DNA from: a virus
Length of the DNA stretch: 25,015 nt
IMG/VR virus record: IMGVR_UViG_3300035195_000561
Span: 1-25,015 of that record
Direction: 5' to 3' (one strand)
The notes under the pieces are model-generated. The model was not told where the DNA came from and did no database searches. It saw only the letters and a list, made by a program, of their open reading frames with translations. Of the stretch, positions 3,742 through 17,434 are shown piece by piece; within the stretch, counting starts at the first letter, position 1, and each line of letters begins with the position of its first letter. The translations under genes and the position numbers were made by a program.

Positions 3742-3815
3742 GGACGAGTAGCTCAGCTGGATAGAGCAATACCCTTCTAAGGTATCGGTCAAAGGTTCGA
3801 ATCCTTTCTCGTTCA
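3742..3815 (+). tRNA. tRNA-Arg (anticodon UCU)
   Basis: A full cloverleaf can be drawn: acceptor GGACGAG/CTCGTTC (one G-U pair), D stem GCTC/GAGC (3751-3754/3764-3767), anticodon stem ATACC/GGTAT with loop CTTCTAA (anticodon TCT at 3776-3778), variable CGGTC, T stem AAAGG/CCTTT with loop TTCGAAT, discriminator A at 3815. CCA is not encoded. It reads AGA, a codon used very often in the genes of this window, so it probably supplements the host tRNA pool. Confidence 0.93.
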
Positions 3816-3833
3816 CTATAGTTACTAACTATA

Positions 3834-4148: not shown

Positions 4149-4155
4149 TGGATTG

Positions 4156-4226
4156 CTCCGTTCGTCTAACGGTTAGGACATATGGTTTTCATCCATAAAA
4201 TAGGAGTTCGATTCTCCTACGGAGTA
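4156..4226 (+). tRNA. tRNA-Glu (anticodon UUC)
   Basis: Cloverleaf: acceptor GCTCCGT/ACGGAGT (G-U closing pair), D arm with the GGTTAGGAC segment, anticodon stem TATGG/CCATA with loop TTTTCAT (anticodon TTC at 4189-4191), short variable region, T stem AGGAG/CTCCT with loop TTCGATT, discriminator A at 4226, no encoded CCA. It reads GAA, the dominant Glu codon in these very Glu-rich genes. The TTAACA boxes of promoter P3 begin only 5 nt after its end. Confidence 0.92.
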
Positions 4227-4231
4227 CTAAC

Positions 4232-4294: not shown

Positions 4295-4555
4295 ATGAAG
4301 TGGGACAAGATACATATAAGTGATAAAATCGTATATCTCAAAGATATAGTGATGAACTCTACCAACTATAAAGATGGTGATGAGTATATTATCAACGCTT
4401 TAATTACAGGTTCTAACAATACCTTTAGTGGTGAGATGGGATTTAATATTAAACCACATCATATGAAGTTTATGAGAGGATTGTGGGATGAACATATACA
4501 TACCCAAAAAGATAATACAGTAATTGAATTAATAAAGAAGAACAAAACACAATGA
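4295..4555 (+). CDS. Small protein of unknown function (86 aa)
   Basis: A soluble protein starting MKWDKIHISDKIVYLKDIV, with a His-rich segment IKPHHMKFMRGLWDEHIHTQ near the C-terminus. No family is recognised. The ATG at 4295 is chosen because promoter P3's -7 box ends at 4286; longer readings of the frame would begin inside the promoter. The mRNA leader would be about 4-6 nt, so initiation is nearly leaderless. It is followed by a 4-nt overlap (ATGA) with the first of two paralogous genes and is presumably coupled to them. Confidence 0.7.
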   Translation: MKWDKIHISDKIVYLKDIVMNSTNYKDGDEYIINALITGSNNTFSGEMGFNIKPHHMKFMRGLWDEHIHTQKDNTVIELIKKNKTQ

Positions 4556-4890
4556 GTGAATTAACAAAAATAGAAGAGATTCTAACGGAGGCAGGTACAG
4601 TTGGACTTAGAAGTAGAACTATAGAATCTGCTTACAACATACTAAATAGAAATCCTAATATAGATAGGGTGTCTGCATATACTATAGCATTTGAAACATT
4701 AATATCTAATACCGAATCAGGAGATGATAGAGATTTAGAATTTGAATCAGCTATAGCATCTCCTATATCTGATACTGAGGATTATCTTGAAGATGAAGAA
4801 TCCGATTCAGTATCTCAATCTAAATTTGATTTATTTGGAGAAATTGATGATATCGATATGGAATCAGAAACTTTACCAGAAGATGAGTAA
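4552..4890 (+). CDS. Paralogue A: EEIL/NP-DRV helical domain plus acidic tail (112 aa)
   Basis: The first ~50 residues (TKIEEILTEAGTVGLR, then NRNPNIDRVSAYTIAFETLI) match the gene directly downstream in the pattern IEEIL-x-EA, G-x-R, NP-x-(I/L)DRV-x-AY, FE-x-LI. The pair looks like a tandem duplication. The remaining ~60 residues are an acidic, serine-rich, probably disordered tail absent from the second copy. The domain is all-helical and not one I can name. The ATG overlaps the upstream stop (ATGA), and the stop overlaps the next start, so the three genes are coupled. Confidence 0.7.
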   Translation: MSELTKIEEILTEAGTVGLRSRTIESAYNILNRNPNIDRVSAYTIAFETLISNTESGDDRDLEFESAIASPISDTEDYLEDEESDSVSQSKFDLFGEIDDIDMESETLPEDE

Positions 4891-5059
4891 TGAGCAACAA
4901 ATAGAAGAGATACTATGGGAAGCTCACTCATACGGAATCAGAGAAAAGGTGATGAATGATGCAATCAAAATGATGGTAATGAATCCAAAGTTGGATAGGG
5001 TTAATGCGTATAACCAAAGTTTTGAAAGGTTAATAGAAAAGTATGATAGACAAAAGTAG
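4883..5059 (+). CDS. Paralogue B: EEIL/NP-DRV helical domain (58 aa)
   Basis: It begins at the ATG at 4883, which overlaps the end of paralogue A by 8 nt. A longer reading of this frame would lie almost wholly inside paralogue A and is not credible. The sequence QQIEEILWEAHSYGIR, NPKLDRVNAYNQSFERLIEKY aligns over its whole length with the N-terminal part of paralogue A but lacks the acidic tail. It is a compact helical domain of unknown function; two copies might form a heterodimer or act as full-length and tail-less versions. The next gene starts inside its last codons at 5043. Confidence 0.7.
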   Translation: MSNEQQIEEILWEAHSYGIREKVMNDAIKMMVMNPKLDRVNAYNQSFERLIEKYDRQK

Positions 5060-5615
5060 TACGTTGATTGTATGTGCTTTGGAAAAGGAAACTAATAATC
5101 AATTAGATGATTACAATGTTTTATATACAGGTGTAGGTAAGATTAACGCCGCTATGAAGTTAACAAAATACTTGGTAACATTTGGATGTCCTAAGTTAGT
5201 AGTCAACTACGGTACGGCCGGAAGTAGGAATATACCTATAGGTGATTTAGTAGAATGTAGAAGGTTTATGCAAACGGATATGGATGTAACAGCGTTAGGT
5301 TTAGATATAGGTGTAACTCCATTTGAAAACGATATACCTAAGATTCTCGGTGATGATAGTGATTACATCACATATATAAACAGAGAAGGATTACTCTGTG
5401 GTTCAGCTGATTCATTTACTACATACGTTAATAAAGATTTAACAAAAGTAGATGTATATGATATGGAAGCTTATTCCTTAGCTAAAGTGTGTAACCATTT
5501 TAATGTACCATTTGTTTCATTCAAATATATTACAGATAATGTAAATGGTGATTCACAAGGTGATTGGAATTCTAATTTCAAAAAAGGTATTCACAAATTT
5601 AAAAAAGTTTTATGA
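5043..5615 (+). CDS. MTA/SAH nucleosidase-like (PNP/UDP-phosphorylase superfamily)
   Basis: A 190-aa nucleosidase/phosphorylase-fold protein. Signatures in order: ALEKE near residues 12-16 (position of the acidic residue after strand 1 in MtnN-type enzymes), TGVGKINAA at 29-37, VVNYGTAGSRN at 53-63 (glycine loop), CGSADSF at 119-125, DMEAY at 140-144 (Met-Glu ribose-binding pair) and KYITDNVNGDS at 161-171, with Asp165 as the probable catalytic acid. These fit 5'-methylthioadenosine/S-adenosylhomocysteine nucleosidase, which cleaves adenine from MTA or SAH; the fold also covers other nucleosidases, so the substrate is uncertain. It is slightly short for the family (about 230 aa). It overlaps both neighbours and runs directly into the thioesterase gene. 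Confidence 0.75.
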   Translation: MIDKSSTLIVCALEKETNNQLDDYNVLYTGVGKINAAMKLTKYLVTFGCPKLVVNYGTAGSRNIPIGDLVECRRFMQTDMDVTALGLDIGVTPFENDIPKILGDDSDYITYINREGLLCGSADSFTTYVNKDLTKVDVYDMEAYSLAKVCNHFNVPFVSFKYITDNVNGDSQGDWNSNFKKGIHKFKKVL

Positions 5616-6013
5616 AGTACATAACACAACACCCGATTAAGAAATCCGATTTAGGATTCCACGGAAACTTATTCGGTGGTAAGTTATTAGCATGGTTAGA
5701 TGCAGCAGCTGCTGGATTTGCCTCTGAGTTTTGTGATACTCCTAGAATGGTAACTAAAGCAATTGATAAGTGTATATTCAATAAACCAGCAAGAGAAGGT
5801 CAACTCTTAAAGATATATGGTGATGTTGAATCAGTAGGTGGTTCATCAATAAGATTAATATTAGAGGCCCGTTCACATAACGTTTACAATGGTAAACAAA
5901 ACTTAATCCTACGAACAAATATAACCTTTGTTAGAATAGATGAGATGGGTGATGCAATCCCTATATCTGATAGGGTTAAGGATAAATTACCGAATAGAAA
6001 AATATTAGATTAA
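5612..6013 (+). CDS. Hotdog-fold acyl-CoA thioesterase (YciA-like)
   Basis: A 133-aa single hotdog domain with the acyl-CoA thioesterase pattern: GNLFGGKLLAWLDAAAAG at residues 18-35 (Asn19 to Asp30, the central-helix active-site region), MVTKAIDKCIFNKPAREG, then a beta-rich part GGSSIRLILEAR and RTNITFVRIDEMGDAIP. This is the arrangement of YciA/acyl-CoA hydrolase family members, which hydrolyse acyl-CoA to free acid and CoA. Its ATG overlaps the nucleosidase stop by an ATGA, so the two are coupled. A host-derived metabolic gene is unusual in a phage; it may redirect fatty-acyl or branched-chain acyl-CoA pools during infection. The substrate is unknown. Confidence 0.8.
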   Translation: MKYITQHPIKKSDLGFHGNLFGGKLLAWLDAAAAGFASEFCDTPRMVTKAIDKCIFNKPAREGQLLKIYGDVESVGGSSIRLILEARSHNVYNGKQNLILRTNITFVRIDEMGDAIPISDRVKDKLPNRKILD

Positions 6014-6207
6014 TGATAGGTTGGTACTTTATATTAGGAACTGTATTTGCATTCATTATGGAATATGCATTAGATAACAATTGGAATCCTAAACAGAATA
6101 ATAGTAAACGAATTCACTTCAATAACTTAGAACGTATTATAATGGTTATCGGATGGCCTATATGGTTAGTTCAAATAATCAAACGTTATATCAATAGAAA
6201 TCTTTAA
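6013..6207 (+). CDS. Small membrane protein with two hydrophobic helices (64 aa)
   Basis: Residues 2-19 (IGWYFILGTVFAFIMEYA) and 42-57 (IIMVIGWPIWLVQIIK) are hydrophobic enough to cross the membrane, joined by a polar Asn/Lys-rich loop. The tail is basic (KRYINRN), suggesting a cytoplasmic C-terminus. The start overlaps the thioesterase stop by one base. It is the last gene of the operon before promoter P4. No family is recognised; a holin-like or superinfection role is possible but unsupported. Confidence 0.65.
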   Translation: MIGWYFILGTVFAFIMEYALDNNWNPKQNNSKRIHFNNLERIIMVIGWPIWLVQIIKRYINRNL

Positions 6208-6610: not shown

Positions 6611-8776
6611 ATGAATAGAGTAGAAAGAGATAGTAAAAAGTATAGTTCCTTTTGGTTAAAGGATGATTTGTTTGATGATGTAGATGATGGGTTAAATCAC
6701 ATTGAATCTAAACATTCAAATCTGATGGCACTAGCATCTTATAAGAAATCAATAGGTAACTTTGTTAACATCGTTACTAACGATAACATTCCAGTTACGT
6801 TTGATGTAAGAGGTGGTGATTCTTATACCGATGGTAAATCGGTTGTGATATCCGCTAAGATGGATGGTAAGGATTTTGATTCAACTGTTGGACTAGCACT
6901 GCATGAAGGTTCTCACATTAAGTTAACTGATTTCAATTCGTTAGATACACTTAACAATAATATAGAAGAGGTTGTTGGTGTTCCCTTCATTACAGAGATG
7001 ATGGAGAAACATTCTATGGAAGAGTACCAAGCTGAGAACTACATCAGAGGTATTGTTAAGAACTTACTTAACATTATCGAAGATAGAAGAATTGATAACT
7101 ATATTTATTCTACCTCTCCTGGCTATAAGGGTTACTACCACTCTATGTATGAGAAGTACTTTCATTCTAAGGTAGTTGATAAGGGTTTACAATCCTCTGA
7201 GTATAGAGATTTAGATTGGGAATCTTATATGTTCCGTATTATCAATATCACCAATTCACATAGAGATTTAGATGCACTTCCATTGTTAAGAGAGGTGTGG
7301 AATCTAATGGATTTAAAAAATATTAAAAGGTTAACTAATACTAACCAATGTATGGAGTTGGCATCTGAGATTTTCAAACTGATTGAGAACTCACTTCCAG
7401 CTAATCAAAAACCAATTGAATCACCTAACCAATCCAATGGTGAAGGTGAAGGTGGTGGTACTGAAGATGAAGAAACTTCTGAAGGTAGTGGACAAGGTGG
7501 TGGTGGAGATAACTCTGAAACTAATGGTACTGATAACACCGAAGGTAATGGTGGTGAACCTAAAGATGGTTCTGATGAAGGTGATGAATCTAAGGGTGAT
7601 GCTGAAGGTAGTGATGTAATGAAGGGTTCTTCTTCTTACAATCCTAATGGTGCTGGTGGTGATGGTTCTGATAATCAAATCACAGATACCCAAACTCAAA
7701 CTACCAAAGGTGATGGTATGATGAGTGATAGACAAAAGAAACAATTGGATAACGCTATTGAGAAACAAAAGAAGTTTCAAAATGGTGAGATTAAAAAGAA
7801 GATGGTTTCTAAAGGTGAGGCTAAGAAATTAGATACATTGGTTAAAAGTGGTGTTGAAGAAAAGTTAGTTGGTAAAGATTACAAATCTGATTATTGGAGA
7901 AAATCAAAACAAACTCCTGTAATGATTATAAGAAATTATTCTAAATCATTAGTTGATTCTAATATGATATCAATGTTATCTTCTTACTCTTGGGCAACCG
8001 ATAGAAACGAAGGAGCTGTTCAAAAGGGTATTTCATTAGGAACTGTATTAGGTAAGAAACTTAAACTCAGAAATGAAGAAAGAAGTTTGGTTACTCCTAG
8101 AATGAAGAGTGGTAAAATCTCAGGTAGATTATTACATGAATTAGGAATGGGTAACTTTAATGTGTTTGACCAGATAGTAACTAATAAACACAATCCCGCT
8201 TTAGTTCACATCTCAATAGATGCTAGTTCATCGATGGGTGGTAGAAAATGGGAACAAACACAAACTTCCGCAGTTGCTATCGCTAAGGCAGCTTCAATGA
8301 CTTCTAATTTAGATGTGGTTATATCTTACAGAAGTATTCAACATGACGGAACTTGTCAACCACTTATGTTAATCGCTTACGATAGTAGAAAAGATAAGTT
8401 CTCTAAGATTCAACAAACATTCAAATATCTTAACCCCTGTGGAACTACTCCTGAAGGTTTATGTTTTGAATCTGTATTAGATGAGATTGTTAAAACTAAC
8501 AAAGGTGTTGATTCTTACTTCATTAATTTTTCAGATGGATGGCCAGGTTTCTCTAATAGAGATATCGATTATGGTGGTAGTGAGGCTGTGATTCACACAG
8601 CACAACAGATTAAAAAGATTCAACAGGCTGGTGTAAAAGTTCTTTCATACTTTGTGTACGAAGGTTACGAAGGTGGTATTGAGAACTTCAGAGCGATGTA
8701 CGGTAAATCAGCAACATCAGTAGATTGTACTAATCTAATGGCGTTAACTAAGACATTGAACAAATTGTTCCAATAG
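6611..8776 (+). CDS. HExxH metallopeptidase-like plus VWA-domain protein (CobT/MoxR-partner type)
   Basis: A 721-aa soluble protein in three parts. N-terminal part: LALHEGSHIKL with H98, E99 and H102 as an HExxH zinc motif, then NIIEDRRID near 154-162, where E157 may complete the site. Middle: about residues 266-372 form an acidic Gly/Asp/Glu/Ser/Asn-rich linker. C-terminal part: a VWA domain with an intact MIDAS, IDASSS (D537, S539, S541), T at GTTPEG (612-613) and SDG (D642). This resembles CobT-like and DUF2201-like VWA proteins that work with MoxR/CobS AAA+ ATPases, and just such an ATPase is encoded at 9239. Together they probably form an ATP-driven remodelling or insertion machine; the target is unknown. 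No CobN-type chelatase subunit is in the window. Confidence 0.85.
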   Translation: MNRVERDSKKYSSFWLKDDLFDDVDDGLNHIESKHSNLMALASYKKSIGNFVNIVTNDNIPVTFDVRGGDSYTDGKSVVISAKMDGKDFDSTVGLALHEGSHIKLTDFNSLDTLNNNIEEVVGVPFITEMMEKHSMEEYQAENYIRGIVKNLLNIIEDRRIDNYIYSTSPGYKGYYHSMYEKYFHSKVVDKGLQSSEYRDLDWESYMFRIINITNSHRDLDALPLLREVWNLMDLKNIKRLTNTNQCMELASEIFKLIENSLPANQKPIESPNQSNGEGEGGGTEDEETSEGSGQGGGGDNSETNGTDNTEGNGGEPKDGSDEGDESKGDAEGSDVMKGSSSYNPNGAGGDGSDNQITDTQTQTTKGDGMMSDRQKKQLDNAIEKQKKFQNGEIKKKMVSKGEAKKLDTLVKSGVEEKLVGKDYKSDYWRKSKQTPVMIIRNYSKSLVDSNMISMLSSYSWATDRNEGAVQKGISLGTVLGKKLKLRNEERSLVTPRMKSGKISGRLLHELGMGNFNVFDQIVTNKHNPALVHISIDASSSMGGRKWEQTQTSAVAIAKAASMTSNLDVVISYRSIQHDGTCQPLMLIAYDSRKDKFSKIQQTFKYLNPCGTTPEGLCFESVLDEIVKTNKGVDSYFINFSDGWPGFSNRDIDYGGSEAVIHTAQQIKKIQQAGVKVLSYFVYEGYEGGIENFRAMYGKSATSVDCTNLMALTKTLNKLFQ

Positions 8777-8790
8777 AATTGTTAATAACG

Positions 8791-8885
8791 TGTTGATAAC
8801 TTAACAATTATTTAACATAGAAACCTTGGAAAATCCAACTAGTTTCCGTATCTTTACTATGTAGTAAAGAGGGAGTTAACACTCC
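8791..8885 (+). promoter_or_regulatory. Promoter P6 with TTAACA boxes, operator-like palindrome and leader hairpin
   Basis: TGTTGATAACTT at 8791, TTAACA at 8801 and 8812, TTG at 8826-8828 (25 bp from the first box), 20 nt, TATCTTTA at 8849-8856. The palindrome CTTTACTATGTAGTAAAG (8852-8869) covers the -7 box and start point. A leader hairpin GGAG/CTCC (8872-8875 with 8882-8885) has a different loop from its P1 counterpart. The block 8847-8875 is identical to 268-296. It serves the gene at 8920. Confidence 0.75.
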
Positions 8886-8919
8886 GATTAAGAATAGTAA
8901 AAATTAAAAAATAAAAATT

Positions 8920-9144
8920 ATGGGTAAATTAAAATTAGTAAACACATTGAGTTCTCAAAAAGTTGGGGAAAGAGCAACTGGATTTTATAACACTAAAAAA
9001 ACTATTGGTAGAGAATCCAAAGTTAGTGTTTATAGTAGGTTAGGTTTATCGGATGAACAGATAATCGCTCCAAAGTACATCACCATTGGTGGTAATCCTC
9101 ACAAATTGGTAGATGGTAATTGGATTCCACTAAAGAAGATTTAA
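8920..9144 (+). CDS. Small protein of unknown function between VWA and MoxR genes (74 aa)
   Basis: A basic, soluble 74-aa protein (GKLKLVNTLSSQKVGERATGF at the start, an IGGNPHKLVDGNWIPLKKI tail) that looks beta-rich. It has no recognised family, signal or membrane segment. It has its own elaborate promoter (P6) and an AAAAATTATG start context like the gene at 340. Its stop codon is embedded in the TTAACA box of promoter P7. Its position between the VWA and AAA+ genes suggests an adaptor or substrate for that pair, but separate promoters mean it could be unrelated. Confidence 0.7.
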   Translation: MGKLKLVNTLSSQKVGERATGFYNTKKTIGRESKVSVYSRLGLSDEQIIAPKYITIGGNPHKLVDGNWIPLKKI

Positions 9145-9196
9145 CAATTTGTTAACATTAAAAATTAGGAATTGTAAAATATAAGTCGTACTTTAG
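9141..9196 (+). promoter_or_regulatory. Promoter P7 with TTAACA boxes
   Basis: TTAACA at 9141 and 9152 (11-bp period); the outer arms also make the palindrome TTAACAA-T-TTGTTAA. TAG at 9166-9168 is 25 bp from the first box; then 20 nt, then TACTTTAG at 9189-9196. The box overlaps the stop codon of the preceding gene. It drives the AAA+ ATPase gene at 9239, with a leader of about 38 nt. Confidence 0.8.
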
Positions 9197-9238
9197 TAGA
9201 GTAATAAGAGTTAATAGTAATAATTAAATAGTAAATAT

Positions 9239-10525
9239 ATGAGTAATAAAAGTCAAAGAAGTGTTTTCCTTCAATCAAAGAAAAATGAGAATAAGGAGAT
9301 TATCCTTATCGATACCAATGGAACTGAGTTCTTCATTCCACAATTAAATGAAGTAGGTTCTTCACTTTATAAAAGGTGTATATCCGCCGCTAACAATCCA
9401 ACTAAGTATTGTATCAAAGCTAGAATCAAAGGTAATCTCTCTGAAGGTTCTGTTGAGTTCAACAGAGTTCCAGGTGAGAAGTTCAATGGTTCTGAACCTG
9501 TAACAAACTTCGATAAACCTAATGGTGGGTTGGAACAATTCCAAATGAAATCAGTACCTCTTCCAACTGAGGCGGTTGAGAAACCAATGGAAGAAGATTT
9601 CCTAAAGTTCATCCACAATGAATCCAAAGATTTAAAACCACAGATGTTGTTTATGAACGAACTGAAGTGGAAGTACCTAATCAGAAACATTCTGAGAGGT
9701 AAGAATATTATGATGACCGGACCGGCTGGTTGTGGTAAAACTATGGCCGCCAAAGCAGCCGCTAATTCCATTGAGGGTTACTCTATGGAAATATTCAACT
9801 TAGGTTCTACACAAGACCCGAGAGCTACTCTAATCGGTAACACTCAGTTCGATACTAAGAAAGGTACTGTGTTTTCTCCTTCACCATTTGTGAAAGCTAT
9901 TCAAACTCCAAACACCGTTGTTGTTTTAGATGAGTTGACCAGAGCACATCCTGAAGCTCACAACATTCTAATGAGTGTGTTGGATGCAGGACAAAGGTAT
10001 TTAAGATTAGATGAGGCATCTGATTCACCAATTGTAAAAGTTGCTGAAGGTGTTTCCTTTATCGCTTCCGCTAACATCGGTAACGAATACACATCGACTA
10101 GACAATTGGATAGAGCAATCGTTGATAGATTTACAATCATCGAAATGGATACTCTAACTTCAGAAGAAGAAACTTCATTACTTATGATGATGTATCCTTC
10201 TGTTGATGAAGTTGTTCTAAAGAATGTAGCTAAGATTACTTCAATGACTAGAGGTGATGTTAAGAAAGAAACTCCAACTCTATCGAATTCACTTTCGACT
10301 AGAACGGCAGTTGAGATTGGTTCTCTACTGTACGATGGTTTCAATCTGGCTGAGGCCGCTGAAATTACTATCTACCCATTGTTCGAAGATGCAGGTGGAG
10401 CACAATCAGAAAGAACTTTTATTAAACAATACGTTCAAAAGTTTGTTGGTTCTGATGATGTAGAAAATCTATTCAATGTAGAAGAAGATTCAACTGATGA
10501 AGTTGATGTTTCAAACCCATTTTAA
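9239..10525 (+). CDS. MoxR/CobS-type AAA+ ATPase
   Basis: A 428-aa protein. Residues 1-120 form an unrecognised N-terminal region; the AAA+ core starts near 140. Walker A is GPAGCGKT (161-168) and Walker B is VVVLDELTRA with D231 and E232. They are followed by HNILMSVLDAGQRYLRLDE (the MoxR-type insert region), sensor-like ASANIGNEY and DRAIVDRF, which fits the arginine-finger region of MoxR-family ATPases. MoxR/CobS/RavA ATPases act as hexamers with VWA partners to remodel or activate target proteins; the VWA protein at 6611 is the obvious partner. Cyanophages are known to carry a CobS-like ATPase, so phage carriage is not unprecedented. The gene has its own promoter (P7) and ends at a hairpin terminator. 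Confidence 0.9.
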   Translation: MSNKSQRSVFLQSKKNENKEIILIDTNGTEFFIPQLNEVGSSLYKRCISAANNPTKYCIKARIKGNLSEGSVEFNRVPGEKFNGSEPVTNFDKPNGGLEQFQMKSVPLPTEAVEKPMEEDFLKFIHNESKDLKPQMLFMNELKWKYLIRNILRGKNIMMTGPAGCGKTMAAKAAANSIEGYSMEIFNLGSTQDPRATLIGNTQFDTKKGTVFSPSPFVKAIQTPNTVVVLDELTRAHPEAHNILMSVLDAGQRYLRLDEASDSPIVKVAEGVSFIASANIGNEYTSTRQLDRAIVDRFTIIEMDTLTSEEETSLLMMMYPSVDEVVLKNVAKITSMTRGDVKKETPTLSNSLSTRTAVEIGSLLYDGFNLAEAAEITIYPLFEDAGGAQSERTFIKQYVQKFVGSDDVENLFNVEEDSTDEVDVSNPF

Positions 10526-13685: not shown

Positions 13686-14030
13686 ATGATTTACAACATG
13701 AATAACGTATGGAATGTGTTAGATGAATTAGCTGAACGAGCTAAACCTATCACACCAAAACAAAACAATATCGATATTATAGATGATGTATTAACTATGA
13801 GCTTTGATGTACCTGGTTTATCTAAATCAGATATTACAATTAAAGTTGAGGATAGAGTTATATCAATAGAAGGTGAGAATGATGATAGAACATTCAACAA
13901 ACAATATAAGTTAACTGAAGATTGGGATATCAATCAATCTGAGGCTAAGGTTAAGAATGGAGTTCTAACATTATCTATTCCAAAGTTGAAAGAAAAGAAA
14001 AAGAAAGTATTAGAAATTATAGTTAAGTAG
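13686..14030 (+). CDS. hsp20: Small heat-shock protein (Hsp20/alpha-crystallin)
   Basis: A 114-aa protein made almost entirely of an alpha-crystallin domain: LTMSFDVPGLSKSDITIKV, VISIEGE, then ANVKNG-type motif AKVKNGVLTLSIPK, and a C-terminal LEIIV tail that could serve as the I-x-I/V motif for oligomer assembly. It is shorter than most bacterial Hsp20 (about 140-150 aa), with a brief N-terminal arm. Small heat-shock proteins hold unfolding proteins in an ATP-independent way; phage versions are known in T4-like cyanophages. The start ATG follows AAAGGA (13674-13679) at a good Shine-Dalgarno distance. It is controlled by a distinctive repeat array upstream. Confidence 0.9.
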   Translation: MIYNMNNVWNVLDELAERAKPITPKQNNIDIIDDVLTMSFDVPGLSKSDITIKVEDRVISIEGENDDRTFNKQYKLTEDWDINQSEAKVKNGVLTLSIPKLKEKKKKVLEIIVK

Positions 14031-14215
14031 TGAACGGAAGGCAGGTTTTAAATATAAATAACACCCTATGGATAGTTCAAAGAAAGATTCGAATAGATGA
14101 TAGACCTATTGTAGAGACTTGGAGAGAACATCTTCACTGCGATAAAGTATTCAAAAAAGAACCTTACTATTATTTTTGTCAAGAAGTTACGGATATAGAG
14201 TGGGAAGAAATTTAA
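14030..14215 (+). CDS. Small protein of unknown function (61 aa)
   Basis: The frame starts with GTG at 14030, overlapping the last base of the hsp20 stop, and encodes 61 residues with aromatic and charged segments (TLWIVQRKIRIDDRPIVETW, EPYYYFCQEVTDIEWEE). It is mostly beta-like and not recognised. The overlap with hsp20 supports coupling. Its TAA stop (14213-14215) lies within the TTAACA box of promoter P9. The GTG start is the only plausible one near the overlap, which lowers certainty about the exact N-terminus. Confidence 0.55.
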   Translation: MNGRQVLNINNTLWIVQRKIRIDDRPIVETWREHLHCDKVFKKEPYYYFCQEVTDIEWEEI

Positions 14216-14267
14216 CAATTTGTTAACATAGGGGGCTTGTATAAGTCCCCTTTTTTCGTTATATTAG
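14212..14267 (+). promoter_or_regulatory. Promoter P9 with TTAACA boxes, interlaced with a terminator
   Basis: TTAACA at 14212 and 14223 (11-bp period, also the palindrome TTAACAA-T-TTGTTAA), TTG at 14237-14239 (25 bp from the first box), exactly 20 nt, TATATTAG at 14260-14267. The -33 TTG sits inside the hairpin stem of the terminator at 14231-14256. It serves uvsE at 14304 with a leader of about 30 nt. Confidence 0.8.
14231..14256 (+). terminator. Intrinsic terminator overlapping promoter P9
   Basis: GGGGGCTT pairs with AAGTCCCC around a GTAT loop (14231-14250; one G-U pair), followed by six T (14251-14256). This is a textbook intrinsic terminator and the clearest in the window. It should end transcripts from the hsp20 operon while its DNA also provides the -33 box and spacer of P9. 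Confidence 0.85.
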
Positions 14268-14303
14268 TAGTATAATAATAATTAATAATTAAACAATAAA
14301 AGT

Positions 14304-15209
14304 ATGGAGTTAGGATATGCATGTATCAATATGACATTAGGTTCACAGAAACCTAAGATTACTACAAACCGTAGTATGATTAAAAAAACCTTTAAAGAAA
14401 AAGGTATCCCCTACGCATCTGAGTTAGGGATTCAAAACTGTAGAGATTTAGTAGAGATTATTAAATGGAATCATCAGAATGGTATTAACTTCTTTAGGTT
14501 AAGTTCCGATTTGTTCCCTTGGGCATCTGAGTATAACCTCACAGAACTACCCCATTACAATCGTATCAAAACTTTATTAGCAGGTGCAGGACATCTCGCT
14601 GATAAATACAATCAACGTATCTCATCTCATCCAGGCCCATTCAATGTATTGGTATCACCGAGAGAGCACGTAGTACAAAATACTATTACCGACCTTACAA
14701 TCAATGGTGAGGTATTTGATTTAATGGGATTATCTCGTACTCCTTATAATAAAATCAATATACATTGTAATGGTGTGTATGGGGATAAGATATCTGCTAT
14801 GGATAGGTTCTGTAAGAACTTTGAGAGGTTACCAGAATCCGTACAAACTCGTCTAACGGTAGAGAACGATGATAAAGCTAGTATGTACTCAGTTAAAGAT
14901 TTAATGTACATACATGAACGTATTGGGATTCCAATAGTTTTCGATTATCATCATCACCAATTTTGTACTGGAGATTTATCAGAGGAAGAAGCTCTTAATC
15001 TTGCTGTAAGTACCTGGCCTAAAGGTATAACTCCCGCTGTACATTACTCAGAATCTAAAGCTTTAAACGAAAATCTTAAAGTAAAACCTCAAGCTCATTC
15101 AGATTACATTAAAAAGATTCCTAATACATATGGTTTAGATGTAGATATTATGGTAGAGGCAAAAGCTAAAGAGTTAACCGTATTAGAACATCTTCAGTCG
15201 ATAGCATAG
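14304..15209 (+). CDS. uvsE: UV-damage endonuclease (UvdE/UvsE family)
   Basis: A 301-aa TIM-barrel DNA-repair nuclease, normal length for bacterial UvsE. It starts ELGYACIN, has FRLSSDLFPWAS (64-75), HPG (His109), LTVENDDKASMYS (Glu187), a FDYHHHQF cluster (Asp214, His216-218), PAVHYSES (His247), AHSDYI (His265) and DIMVEAKAKE (Glu285). These are the metal-binding signature positions of the family. UvdE nicks DNA 5' of cyclobutane dimers, 6-4 photoproducts and some abasic sites. A phage facing sunlight would use it to repair its own DNA in the host. It has a private strong promoter (P9). Alternative identities such as EndoIV-like AP endonuclease are less likely given the HHH and HSDYI motifs. 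Confidence 0.93.
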   Translation: MELGYACINMTLGSQKPKITTNRSMIKKTFKEKGIPYASELGIQNCRDLVEIIKWNHQNGINFFRLSSDLFPWASEYNLTELPHYNRIKTLLAGAGHLADKYNQRISSHPGPFNVLVSPREHVVQNTITDLTINGEVFDLMGLSRTPYNKINIHCNGVYGDKISAMDRFCKNFERLPESVQTRLTVENDDKASMYSVKDLMYIHERIGIPIVFDYHHHQFCTGDLSEEEALNLAVSTWPKGITPAVHYSESKALNENLKVKPQAHSDYIKKIPNTYGLDVDIMVEAKAKELTVLEHLQSIA

Positions 15210-15210
15210 T

Positions 15211-15327
15211 ATGTGCGTTTTGCTTGTTTTAGTATTAATTATTAATATTTTAATACTTATTGATATAGGTTATTTGGTTGTCGTCAACCTAATTACTTAT
15301 TGCTTATTTAATAATAGTTGTAAATAA
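15211..15327 (+). CDS. Possible 38-aa hydrophobic micro-protein
   Basis: The frame ATG 15211 to TAA 15325-15327 begins one base after the uvsE stop and reads MCVLLVLVLIINILILIDIG, followed by YLVVVNLITYCLFNNSCK. It is nearly all hydrophobic, enough for one long or two short membrane helices. Coupling to uvsE is possible. Against it, the DNA is simply A/T-rich and also holds candidate late promoter L3 and a hairpin, so the frame could be accidental. No family is recognised. Confidence 0.35.
   Translation: MCVLLVLVLIINILILIDIGYLVVVNLITYCLFNNSCK
15248..15261 (+). promoter_or_regulatory. Candidate late promoter L3 (TTTTAATACTTATT)
   Basis: An exact second copy of the 14-base motif at 3834. It would give a roughly 90-nt leader before the ATG at 15360. 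That leader contains TAGGTT/AACCTA (15266-15271 with 15286-15291) and the alternative GGTTG-TCGT-CAACC stem. The 150-nt region between uvsE and the membrane-protein gene holds no other clear promoter. Confidence 0.4.
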
Positions 15328-15359
15328 ATACAAAACACGAAGTTAATAAAACTAAAAAT

Positions 15360-16403
15360 ATGGGAATTGTTAAGAACTTTTTTTCAAAAAGGGTAGGATT
15401 TGGATTTTTGATGGTGTTTTCAACACTATCCTTAGCTGGAACTGCCGCATATTACTCAGTATTCGGACTGAGTTCATTATTTGCTGGAGCAAAGACTGAA
15501 GTTATTATAATGGCATCTGCATTAGAGTTAGCTAAATTAGTTGTAGCATCATATCTACATAATCATTGGAGTAAGTTAGGATTAATTTTAAAATCATATC
15601 TTACATTAGGTGTTGGTATCTTAATGATAATAACATCAGCTGGTATATATGGATTCTTAACATCAGCATATCAAACAACTGCAGACCAATTAACAATTAT
15701 TGATAAACAAGTTTTAGTAGTTGAGATGAAGAGAGATAGATTCTCAGAACAATTGGATGATTATAAGTTAGAAAAAACTCAACTAAATAGTAATATATCA
15801 GAACTATCCAAAGGATTAGCTAATAATAAAATTCAGTATAAGGATACGTTAGGTAACATTATAACAACTACATCCTCTTCAACACGAAGAGTTCTTACAA
15901 CTCAGCTAAATGATATGAAAGAGGAGCGTAATAAGGTTTCTATTAAGATGGAAACTCTCACAGATTCAATTACTTCTTTAGATTTAAAAGTATTAGATAT
16001 GGAATCCAATAATGAAGTAGCTGCAGAGATTGGGCCACTAAGATATATGGCAGAGATTACAAATAAACCAATGGCAACAATTGTAAATTGGTTTACCCTA
16101 ATGATTGTATGTGTGTTCGACCCGTTAGCAATTGCTATGGTTCTTGCTGTAAATAAATTCTTTGGTAGAAGAGAAGAAGAAGTTATTGTTAAAAAGGAAT
16201 CACCAATCATAGAAGAAGTTTTAAGTAAAGAAGATATAGGTTCTGTTGAAGAAATGATAAAAAAGAATGAAGAAATTTTGGCAACTAAAAGGGTAGAACC
16301 AAAACCTAAAAAGAAAATATATGGTGGGTATTCAAAACCATATAATGATGGTACGGTAATCAATGAAACTGATACCGAAGAAGATGATGTAAAAACTTAC
16401 TAA
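15360..16403 (+). CDS. Membrane protein with coiled-coil loop (347 aa)
   Basis: Hydrophobic segments lie at about residues 13-40, 44-65, 80-103 and 243-266, so probably four membrane passes. Between the third and fourth is a ~130-residue coiled-coil-like loop rich in Lys/Glu/Leu. The first region has FGLSSLFAGA and ALELAKLVVASYLHNHW; the fourth segment contains FDPLAIAMVLAVN. The C-terminal ~80 residues are charged, with repeated Glu and a KPKKKIYGG patch. I have a sense of similar proteins in marine T4-like phages, where they have no assigned role. By topology the loop would project to one side of the inner membrane. Candidate roles are superinfection exclusion, a membrane scaffold or lysis control; none is shown. 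Confidence 0.7.
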   Translation: MGIVKNFFSKRVGFGFLMVFSTLSLAGTAAYYSVFGLSSLFAGAKTEVIIMASALELAKLVVASYLHNHWSKLGLILKSYLTLGVGILMIITSAGIYGFLTSAYQTTADQLTIIDKQVLVVEMKRDRFSEQLDDYKLEKTQLNSNISELSKGLANNKIQYKDTLGNIITTTSSSTRRVLTTQLNDMKEERNKVSIKMETLTDSITSLDLKVLDMESNNEVAAEIGPLRYMAEITNKPMATIVNWFTLMIVCVFDPLAIAMVLAVNKFFGRREEEVIVKKESPIIEEVLSKEDIGSVEEMIKKNEEILATKRVEPKPKKKIYGGYSKPYNDGTVINETDTEEDDVKTY

Positions 16404-16407
16404 TAAA

Positions 16408-16439
16408 TTTGGTAATGTTAATTATATTTCGTATATTTG
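16408..16439 (+). promoter_or_regulatory. Promoter P10 (TTTG-N20-TATATTTG)
   Basis: TTTG at 16408-16411, exactly 20 nt, TATATTTG at 16432-16439, a perfect match to both Bacteroidota boxes. No TTAACA boxes. It serves clpP (ATG at 16472) and probably groES. Confidence 0.8.
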
Positions 16440-16471
16440 ATTAAATATAAACATAAAAAGTTACAAAACAT

Positions 16472-17113
16472 ATGAGCGATTTATACAATGATGGCAGAAC
16501 ATCAACGGCTGGTGATATAGAAACTACCTATGATGTTAAAAAAGCTAGTGAGAGGGAAAAACACTTTCAAGAGTTTAGAGAGTTTGATTATGGGATTGAC
16601 ATACAATCAAACATTATTTTAATTCAAGATGAAATATCACAAGGTATGGTGTTTGATACTATATCTAAAGTTAGATTACTAAGAAAGATTAATACTGATT
16701 TAAAATCAGTAACACTATTACTAAATTCACCAGGTGGTGATGTAGTAGAAACTCTAGCACTTATTGATTACATTAGAACAATAAAAGACAATGATGGGAT
16801 TGATACGAACATCGTTGTAAGAGGTTCAGCTATGAGTGCAGCAGCACTCCTTCTAACCGCAGGAACAGGTCTTAGAGCAGCATCTAAACATTCTAAGATT
16901 ATGGTTCACCAATTATCAACATTCAATATGGGTAAGTTGGAAGATGTTAAATCTAACGCTAAATTCGCAGAACAATTAGAAGAAGATTGTAACACCATTA
17001 TGGCTGAATGTACAAACAAAGATAAAGAGTTTTGGAAAGAAACTCAAAGAACAGACACCTTCCTTTCTTCGGAAGATGCATTAGAATTAGGAATAATCGA
17101 TAAAATTATATAA
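16472..17113 (+). CDS. clpP: ClpP-family serine protease
   Basis: A 213-aa protein of normal ClpP length. After a ~50-residue polar N-terminus come LLLNSPGGDV (oxyanion glycine loop), GSAMSAAALLLTAG with Ser122 as nucleophile, KIMVHQLS with His146, and RTDTFLSSEDALELGIID with Asp195. The spacings (24 and 49 residues) match the E. coli Ser98-His123-Asp172 triad, so the protease should be active. ClpP forms a barrel fed by a Clp ATPase; none is encoded here, so it may use the host ClpX/ClpA or act as a prohead protease, a job done by ClpP-like enzymes in some phages. It is followed 12 nt later by groES and driven by P10. Confidence 0.92.
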   Translation: MSDLYNDGRTSTAGDIETTYDVKKASEREKHFQEFREFDYGIDIQSNIILIQDEISQGMVFDTISKVRLLRKINTDLKSVTLLLNSPGGDVVETLALIDYIRTIKDNDGIDTNIVVRGSAMSAAALLLTAGTGLRAASKHSKIMVHQLSTFNMGKLEDVKSNAKFAEQLEEDCNTIMAECTNKDKEFWKETQRTDTFLSSEDALELGIIDKII

Positions 17114-17125
17114 ATAAAGAAAACT

Positions 17126-17434
17126 ATGGAATACAGTTACAGGCCGTTAGGCGACAGAGTAGTAGTAGAGATACTAAAAAGACATGATGAAAAAACTAAA
17201 GGTGGATTATACAAACCATCAGGTTCAGAAACCACAATGATGGGAGTGGTAATTGCAGTTGGTAGTGGGTTATACACCCATTCAGGAGCAACAATCCCAA
17301 TGAGTACCAAAGTAGGGGATACAGTTCTATTAGATGGAACTGGTTTCAAACATAAAAATGGTGGTAAAACTTATAACATATATAGAGAGAGTGATTTCCT
17401 ATCTATATTAGATGAAGATACAACTAACTCATAA
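17126..17434 (+). CDS. groES: GroES-like co-chaperonin (Cpn10)
   Basis: A 102-aa protein with the Cpn10 pattern: YRPLGDRVVVEILKR, then a mobile-loop region DEKTKGGLYKPSG, MMGVVIAVGSG, IPMSTKVGDTVLLDGTG and a final YNIYRESDFLSIL. GroES caps the GroEL folding chamber; T4 (gp31) and other large phages encode their own version to fold the major capsid protein. No GroEL is encoded in the window, so the host chaperonin is the likely partner. It shares the P10 transcript with clpP. The stop codon lies in the loop of an 8-bp inverted repeat (17422-17444). Confidence 0.9.
   Translation: MEYSYRPLGDRVVVEILKRHDEKTKGGLYKPSGSETTMMGVVIAVGSGLYTHSGATIPMSTKVGDTVLLDGTGFKHKNGGKTYNIYRESDFLSILDEDTTNS

Follow-up and report, generated by a model that had tools for sequence, protein, structure and literature searches.

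Do two enzyme genes that overlap in a phage genome serve one pathway, or are they simply neighbours? This question is raised by a virus fragment of 25,015 bases with 33% GC (IMG/VR record IMGVR_UViG_3300035195_000561; the whole stretch analysed is referred to below as the window), in which a gene for a short MTA/SAH-nucleosidase-like protein overlaps a gene for a thioesterase-like (TE) protein. The window as a whole yielded no match to phage records by megablast. An earlier note on this DNA had read the two genes as a coupled pair acting in SAM salvage and acyl-CoA metabolism.

Arrangement of the gene pair

Six-frame open reading frame analysis placed the nucleosidase-like gene (5043..5615, ATG start, 190 aa) and the gene for a 4HBT hotdog TE-like protein of the ACOT7/YciA type (5612..6013, ATG start, 133 aa) on the forward strand, with an ATGA overlap at 5612-5615, thereby bearing out the earlier note on position and junction; both are real genes. 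The flanking genes on the same strand overlap the pair as well: a small ORF upstream (4883..5059) shares 17 bases with the nucleosidase gene, and another downstream (6013..6207) shares one base with the TE stop, neither having an assigned function. In a hand-made gene list of the window, 15 of 43 neighbouring pairs overlap by at least one base and four by exactly four bases. Since about one third of neighbouring genes in the window overlap, the ATGA junction is unremarkable in this setting.

The forward-strand ORF 5′ of the 4883 ORF (4552..4890), for which no confident family was obtained, is similar to it at the N-terminus, and in several relatives a single stretch is matched by both. Further upstream of the pair lie tRNA-Arg (tct; 3742-3816) and tRNA-Glu (ttc; 4155-4227) as well as a cytidylyltransferase-like gene at 2267-2722 (PF01467; phrog_7878, 1e-29), which is 95% identical in the related locus L001. 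Downstream of the TE, positions 6611-10525 encode an AAA_5 ATPase and a long clade-conserved protein that is VWA-like by eye and has no Pfam match; a VWA protein and an ATPase also lie near the TE of Xanthomonas phage XacN1 (L191). Genes for HSP20, a UvdE UV endonuclease, a ClpP-like protease and a GroES-like co-chaperonin are clustered at 13686-17434.

Family, fold and active-site residues

The nucleosidase ORF matched PF01048 (PNP_UDP_1) at 1.2e-17 (64.6 bits against a Pfam cut-off of 25.1) and the NCBIfam nucleosidase models NF004168, NF004079 and TIGR01705 at 3e-16 to 4e-21 (1e-19 to 1e-21 for the best nucleosidase models), while the NCBIfam futalosine-hydrolase models matched it weakly. 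As its scores fall below the MtnN equivalog cut-offs (70.1 against 169 for NF004079, 50.7 against 73.8 for TIGR01704 and 75.7 against 129 for NF004168), the protein is filed here as MTAN-like rather than as a confirmed MtnN. An AlphaFold model built from 27 phage sequences (pLDDT 82.5) superimposed on the MTAN structure 3bl6 with a Z score of 18.7 (2.5 Å over 177 residues); the best 50 structural matches were all MTAN or futalosine-hydrolase entries, and Foldseek likewise matched MTA/SAH nucleosidases. The best PDB sequence match was the Brucella protein 4pr3, of the short MTAN form NF004168/PRK05634.

By alignment, E16, E142 and D165 of the nucleosidase correspond to E12, E174 and D197 of E. 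coli Mtn, which we take to be its catalytic residues, and none of the three varies among the short MTANs aligned, 27 from phages and 25 from bacteria. Mutants of MTAN at Glu12 and Asp197 are named in the titles of PDB entries. The window protein shares its fold, these residues and the equivalent of the adenine-pocket F151 with both MtnN/Pfs (PF01048) and the short form, but it has approximately 40 residues fewer than E. coli Mtn, roughly half of which (some 20) are missing between E12 and I50. It further differs from bacterial MtnN in that R193 is replaced by Lys and F207 by Trp, replacements found across the whole short class of 27 phage and 25 bacterial sequences, in which E172 is mostly Asp. 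Sequence and model mark the protein as a short MTAN-like form and a predicted hydrolase, and because of the sub-threshold scores and the R193K and F207W replacements the substrate preference of this class may differ from that of MtnN.

In a quick tree the nucleosidase joined L061, L063 and L064 with a support of 93, within a larger group (29 rows, mainly from phages) that had a support of 83; this tree is too weak to name a donor. In many phages among L065-L085 (e.g. L068:5893-6576), a DUF5522-like leader rich in cysteine (GYCCGHGCLMCPY) runs on into the nucleosidase ORF; it forms a separate ORF in L081 (3640-3870), and in the others both a fusion and an internal start are possible.

The TE ORF matched PF03061 (4HBT) at 1e-12 (48.6 bits, Pfam cut-off 20.6) and PHROG 18230, and its model (pLDDT 87.9) matched HI0827/YciA with a Z score of 18.4 in addition to ACOT7-type thioesterases. 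Homologues were found at 56 loci in viral contigs at 57-98% identity, and one is present in Flavobacterium phage immuto; plasmids gave two weak partial matches only. The TE shares with YciA/HI0827 and ACOT7-type thioesterases the hotdog fold and the catalytic Asp and Thr positions: D30 and T48 occupy the positions of Asp43 and Thr60 of a S. aureus thioesterase and are invariant in 24 phage homologues. However, the conserved active-site Asn of these enzymes (S. aureus Asn28) is Gly15 in the TE and Gly in all 24 aligned phage homologues, whereas the TE of XacN1 retains the Asn. Asn28, Asp43 and Thr60 mutants of the S. aureus enzyme are named in PDB titles; no direct report of the Asn28 or Asp43 mutants was found in the papers searched.

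Since the conserved Asn is replaced by Gly15, it is uncertain from the sequence whether the TE hydrolyses acyl-CoA. The invariant Gly raises the possibility, serious although short of our favoured expectation, that the protein is a binding or altered-chemistry hotdog protein rather than an active acyl-CoA hydrolase; the retention of D30 and T48 throughout, and the strong conservation of the family, argue against it. This reading of the TE is compatible with any reading of the nucleosidase. The enzyme classes of the earlier note therefore stand at the level of family, the nucleosidase falling below its equivalog cut-offs and the TE being without the conserved Asn.

Genomic partners of the nucleosidase and the thioesterase

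Thirty-nine nucleosidase loci were obtained by scanning viral contigs with a three-sequence alignment, a single-sequence scan with over-specific exact peptide patterns having given none. The resulting 39 records and a set of 49 records were found via the nucleosidase and the TE, respectively, and are therefore not random samples; they are fragments, so that the absence of a gene from them is weak evidence, and neighbours were counted with a custom ORF caller. With these limits, a PF01048 protein occurs in three of the 49 TE-bearing records, adjacent to the TE in each, and a 4HBT protein in four of the 39 nucleosidase-bearing records, adjacent in three of the four. The two genes are thus not conserved together across phages, an outcome that the earlier note had itself named as refuting its reading, and the functional pair of SAM-salvage and acyl-CoA enzymes that had been proposed finds no backing in these counts. 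The order of nucleosidase followed by TE is seen in the window, L002, L012 and L031, and the neighbourhood has persisted for some time, because the nucleosidases of the three other paired records are only about 54-57% identical to that of the window.

Comparison of TE loci revealed what lies at this position in relatives. L001 carries a TE that is 98% identical and has flanks collinear with the window, including the 6013-6207 ORF directly after the TE, but it has no nucleosidase, and a homologue of the 4883 ORF abuts the TE directly. In L003-L007 the slot 5′ of the TE is filled by methylglyoxal synthase, with thyA after the TE; in L012 and L031 it holds apt (the adenine phosphoribosyltransferase gene) followed by the nucleosidase, and in L002 metK, apt and the nucleosidase. 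The slot 5′ of the TE is therefore a variable cargo space and the TE is the more constant gene, and the nucleosidase and TE are probably chance neighbours, tightly packed and with no common pathway. The methylglyoxal synthase genes (L003:5630-6004 and also L004-L007; NF003559 at 3e-47, over cut-off in L003) are an observation in their own right, and no direct report of a phage methylglyoxal synthase was found in the papers searched.

When the neighbours of the 39 phage nucleosidases are sorted into families, apt forms the largest, at 27 loci. By whole-record search, 27 of the 39 records with a nucleosidase contain apt, 26 of them scoring above the NF002636 cut-off, as against none over cut-off among 46 TE-only records, a difference (Fisher p 1.6e-12) to be taken as descriptive, the sequences being related and the records fragments. 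Twelve of the 39 records, several of them short fragments, show no apt. When the set was reduced at 85% identity, apt lay within 6 kb of the nucleosidase in 14 of 22 representatives, as compared with two of 22 for the TE. It is located directly 5′ of the nucleosidase at ten loci (L061-L063, L077, L078, L080, L086-L088 and L091), and also in the complete 156-kb phage C48C1 (OQ984149.1; L190:4484-5543), where both genes are annotated as hypothetical and lie just after the ribonucleotide reductase genes. At 38 of 80 bacterial loci of nucleosidase relatives, the flanks covered include an apt-like gene, which mostly ends just before the nucleosidase. Based on these data, we conclude that the conserved partner of the nucleosidase is apt and not the TE.

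These bacterial pairs (SAR116, SAR86, Porticoccaceae, Neomarinimicrobiota and others) resemble those of the phages in both gene families and mostly in gene order; the window differs from them, as no apt was found in its 25,015 bases, a fragment of the phage genome, and as a TE-like gene lies downstream. The papers searched contained no direct report of a bacterial apt-mtnN operon. Viral mtnN has already been reported: Lake Baikal viral population VP_139 carries a methionine adenosyltransferase and an MTA/SAH nucleosidase (PMC7678222), and mtnN/pfs is known from marine viromes (PMC10653327). The window resembles these SAM-cycle auxiliary genes in its virus-borne nucleosidase, which is sometimes accompanied by metK, but those reports describe no apt partner (PMC7678222 never mentions phosphoribosyltransferase), and metK and apt are both missing from the 25 kb of the window. 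None of the papers searched, a limited, open-licence set, describes an apt-mtnN module in phages.

In the phage set, metK lies close to the nucleosidase in L063, L074, L076 and L079, and is present in four of 38 records searched. Short phage methionine adenosyltransferases, with open frames of about 326 aa that score below the TIGR01034 cut-off, adjoin or lie near the nucleosidase at L074:5151-6008, L076:5037-6008 and L079:1136-2002.

Proposed role of the nucleosidase

Taken together, the findings argue with good probability for an auxiliary MTAN-like gene that occupies the variable slot directly upstream of the TE in one marine phage clade and serves adenine salvage. From residues and neighbours we infer that the enzyme would hydrolyse the N-glycosidic bond of MTA, SAH and/or 5′-deoxyadenosine to release adenine, which adenine phosphoribosyltransferase would then combine with PRPP to form AMP for the nucleotide pools. 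Because no apt lies in the 25 kb of the window, the second step in this phage would have to be supplied by the host APRT or by a phage copy outside the fragment. A bacterial precedent for such logic is available: impaired growth of a spermidine-synthase mutant was relieved by MTA, adenine or adenosine, and MtnN and Apt were placed in the proposed route (PMC13192272). Polyamine synthesis is not a general source of MTA in these phages, SAM decarboxylase (PF02675) being present in two of 38 nucleosidase records.

A broader version of the proposal, to which we give slightly less than an even chance, is that apt and the nucleosidase, sometimes preceded by metK, form a transferable operon of diverse marine phages that acts as an adenine-recycling loop around SAM use, the window gene having lost its link to apt and become attached to a TE-like gene with an altered active site. 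The association with apt is the most useful outcome of following the nucleosidase of the window, and a testable story, a two-step phage route from SAM by-products to AMP, replaces the unsupported two-enzyme one. If it is true, a phage can gain enough during infection from clearance of SAH or supply of adenine to carry a gene for it, and a likely function would be at hand for the genes annotated as hypothetical in the complete phage C48C1.

Removal of SAH and 5′-deoxyadenosine would also relieve the inhibition of methyltransferases and radical-SAM enzymes. Relief of SAH inhibition of methylation, which the earlier note had considered, is possible since a DNA-methylase-like gene family occurs at 17 of the 39 nucleosidase loci (the one member tested has a DNA-methylase domain, PF01555 just over cut-off). 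That such detoxification is the main function, and recovery of adenine secondary, appears rather unlikely: the methylase family, the radical-SAM domain over cut-off in nine of 38 records searched and the four cases of nearby metK speak for it, but APRT is more frequent and spread across more lineages than either methylase or radical-SAM genes, most of the methylase-family loci belong to a single set of close relatives, and no radical SAM was found in the window record, G002, G012 or G027.

Less probable still is that the short MTAN-like protein has shifted to a different PNP-family substrate, such as aminodeoxyfutalosine or a nucleoside-based defence signal. The sub-equivalog scores, the weak futalosine-hydrolase matches and the R193K, E172D and F207W replacements would be consistent with it; yet the same replacements are present in the 25 aligned bacterial short MTANs, and the bacterial relatives adjoin apt too, which fits the release of adenine. 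Joint action of nucleosidase and TE, on acyl-homoserine-lactone by-products or on coupled SAM and acyl-CoA pools, is disfavoured and very improbable, as the translational overlap and the gene order repeated in four records are outweighed by the rarity of the pair in both record sets, the frequency of overlapping genes in the window and the TE of L001 that stands without a nucleosidase. Clearance of quorum-sensing signals by the pair was likewise rejected, as there was no supporting gene and nothing pointed to the acyl-homoserine-lactone link that the earlier note had suggested; adenine salvage thus continues to be the reading of the nucleosidase that best fits its recurrent neighbour.
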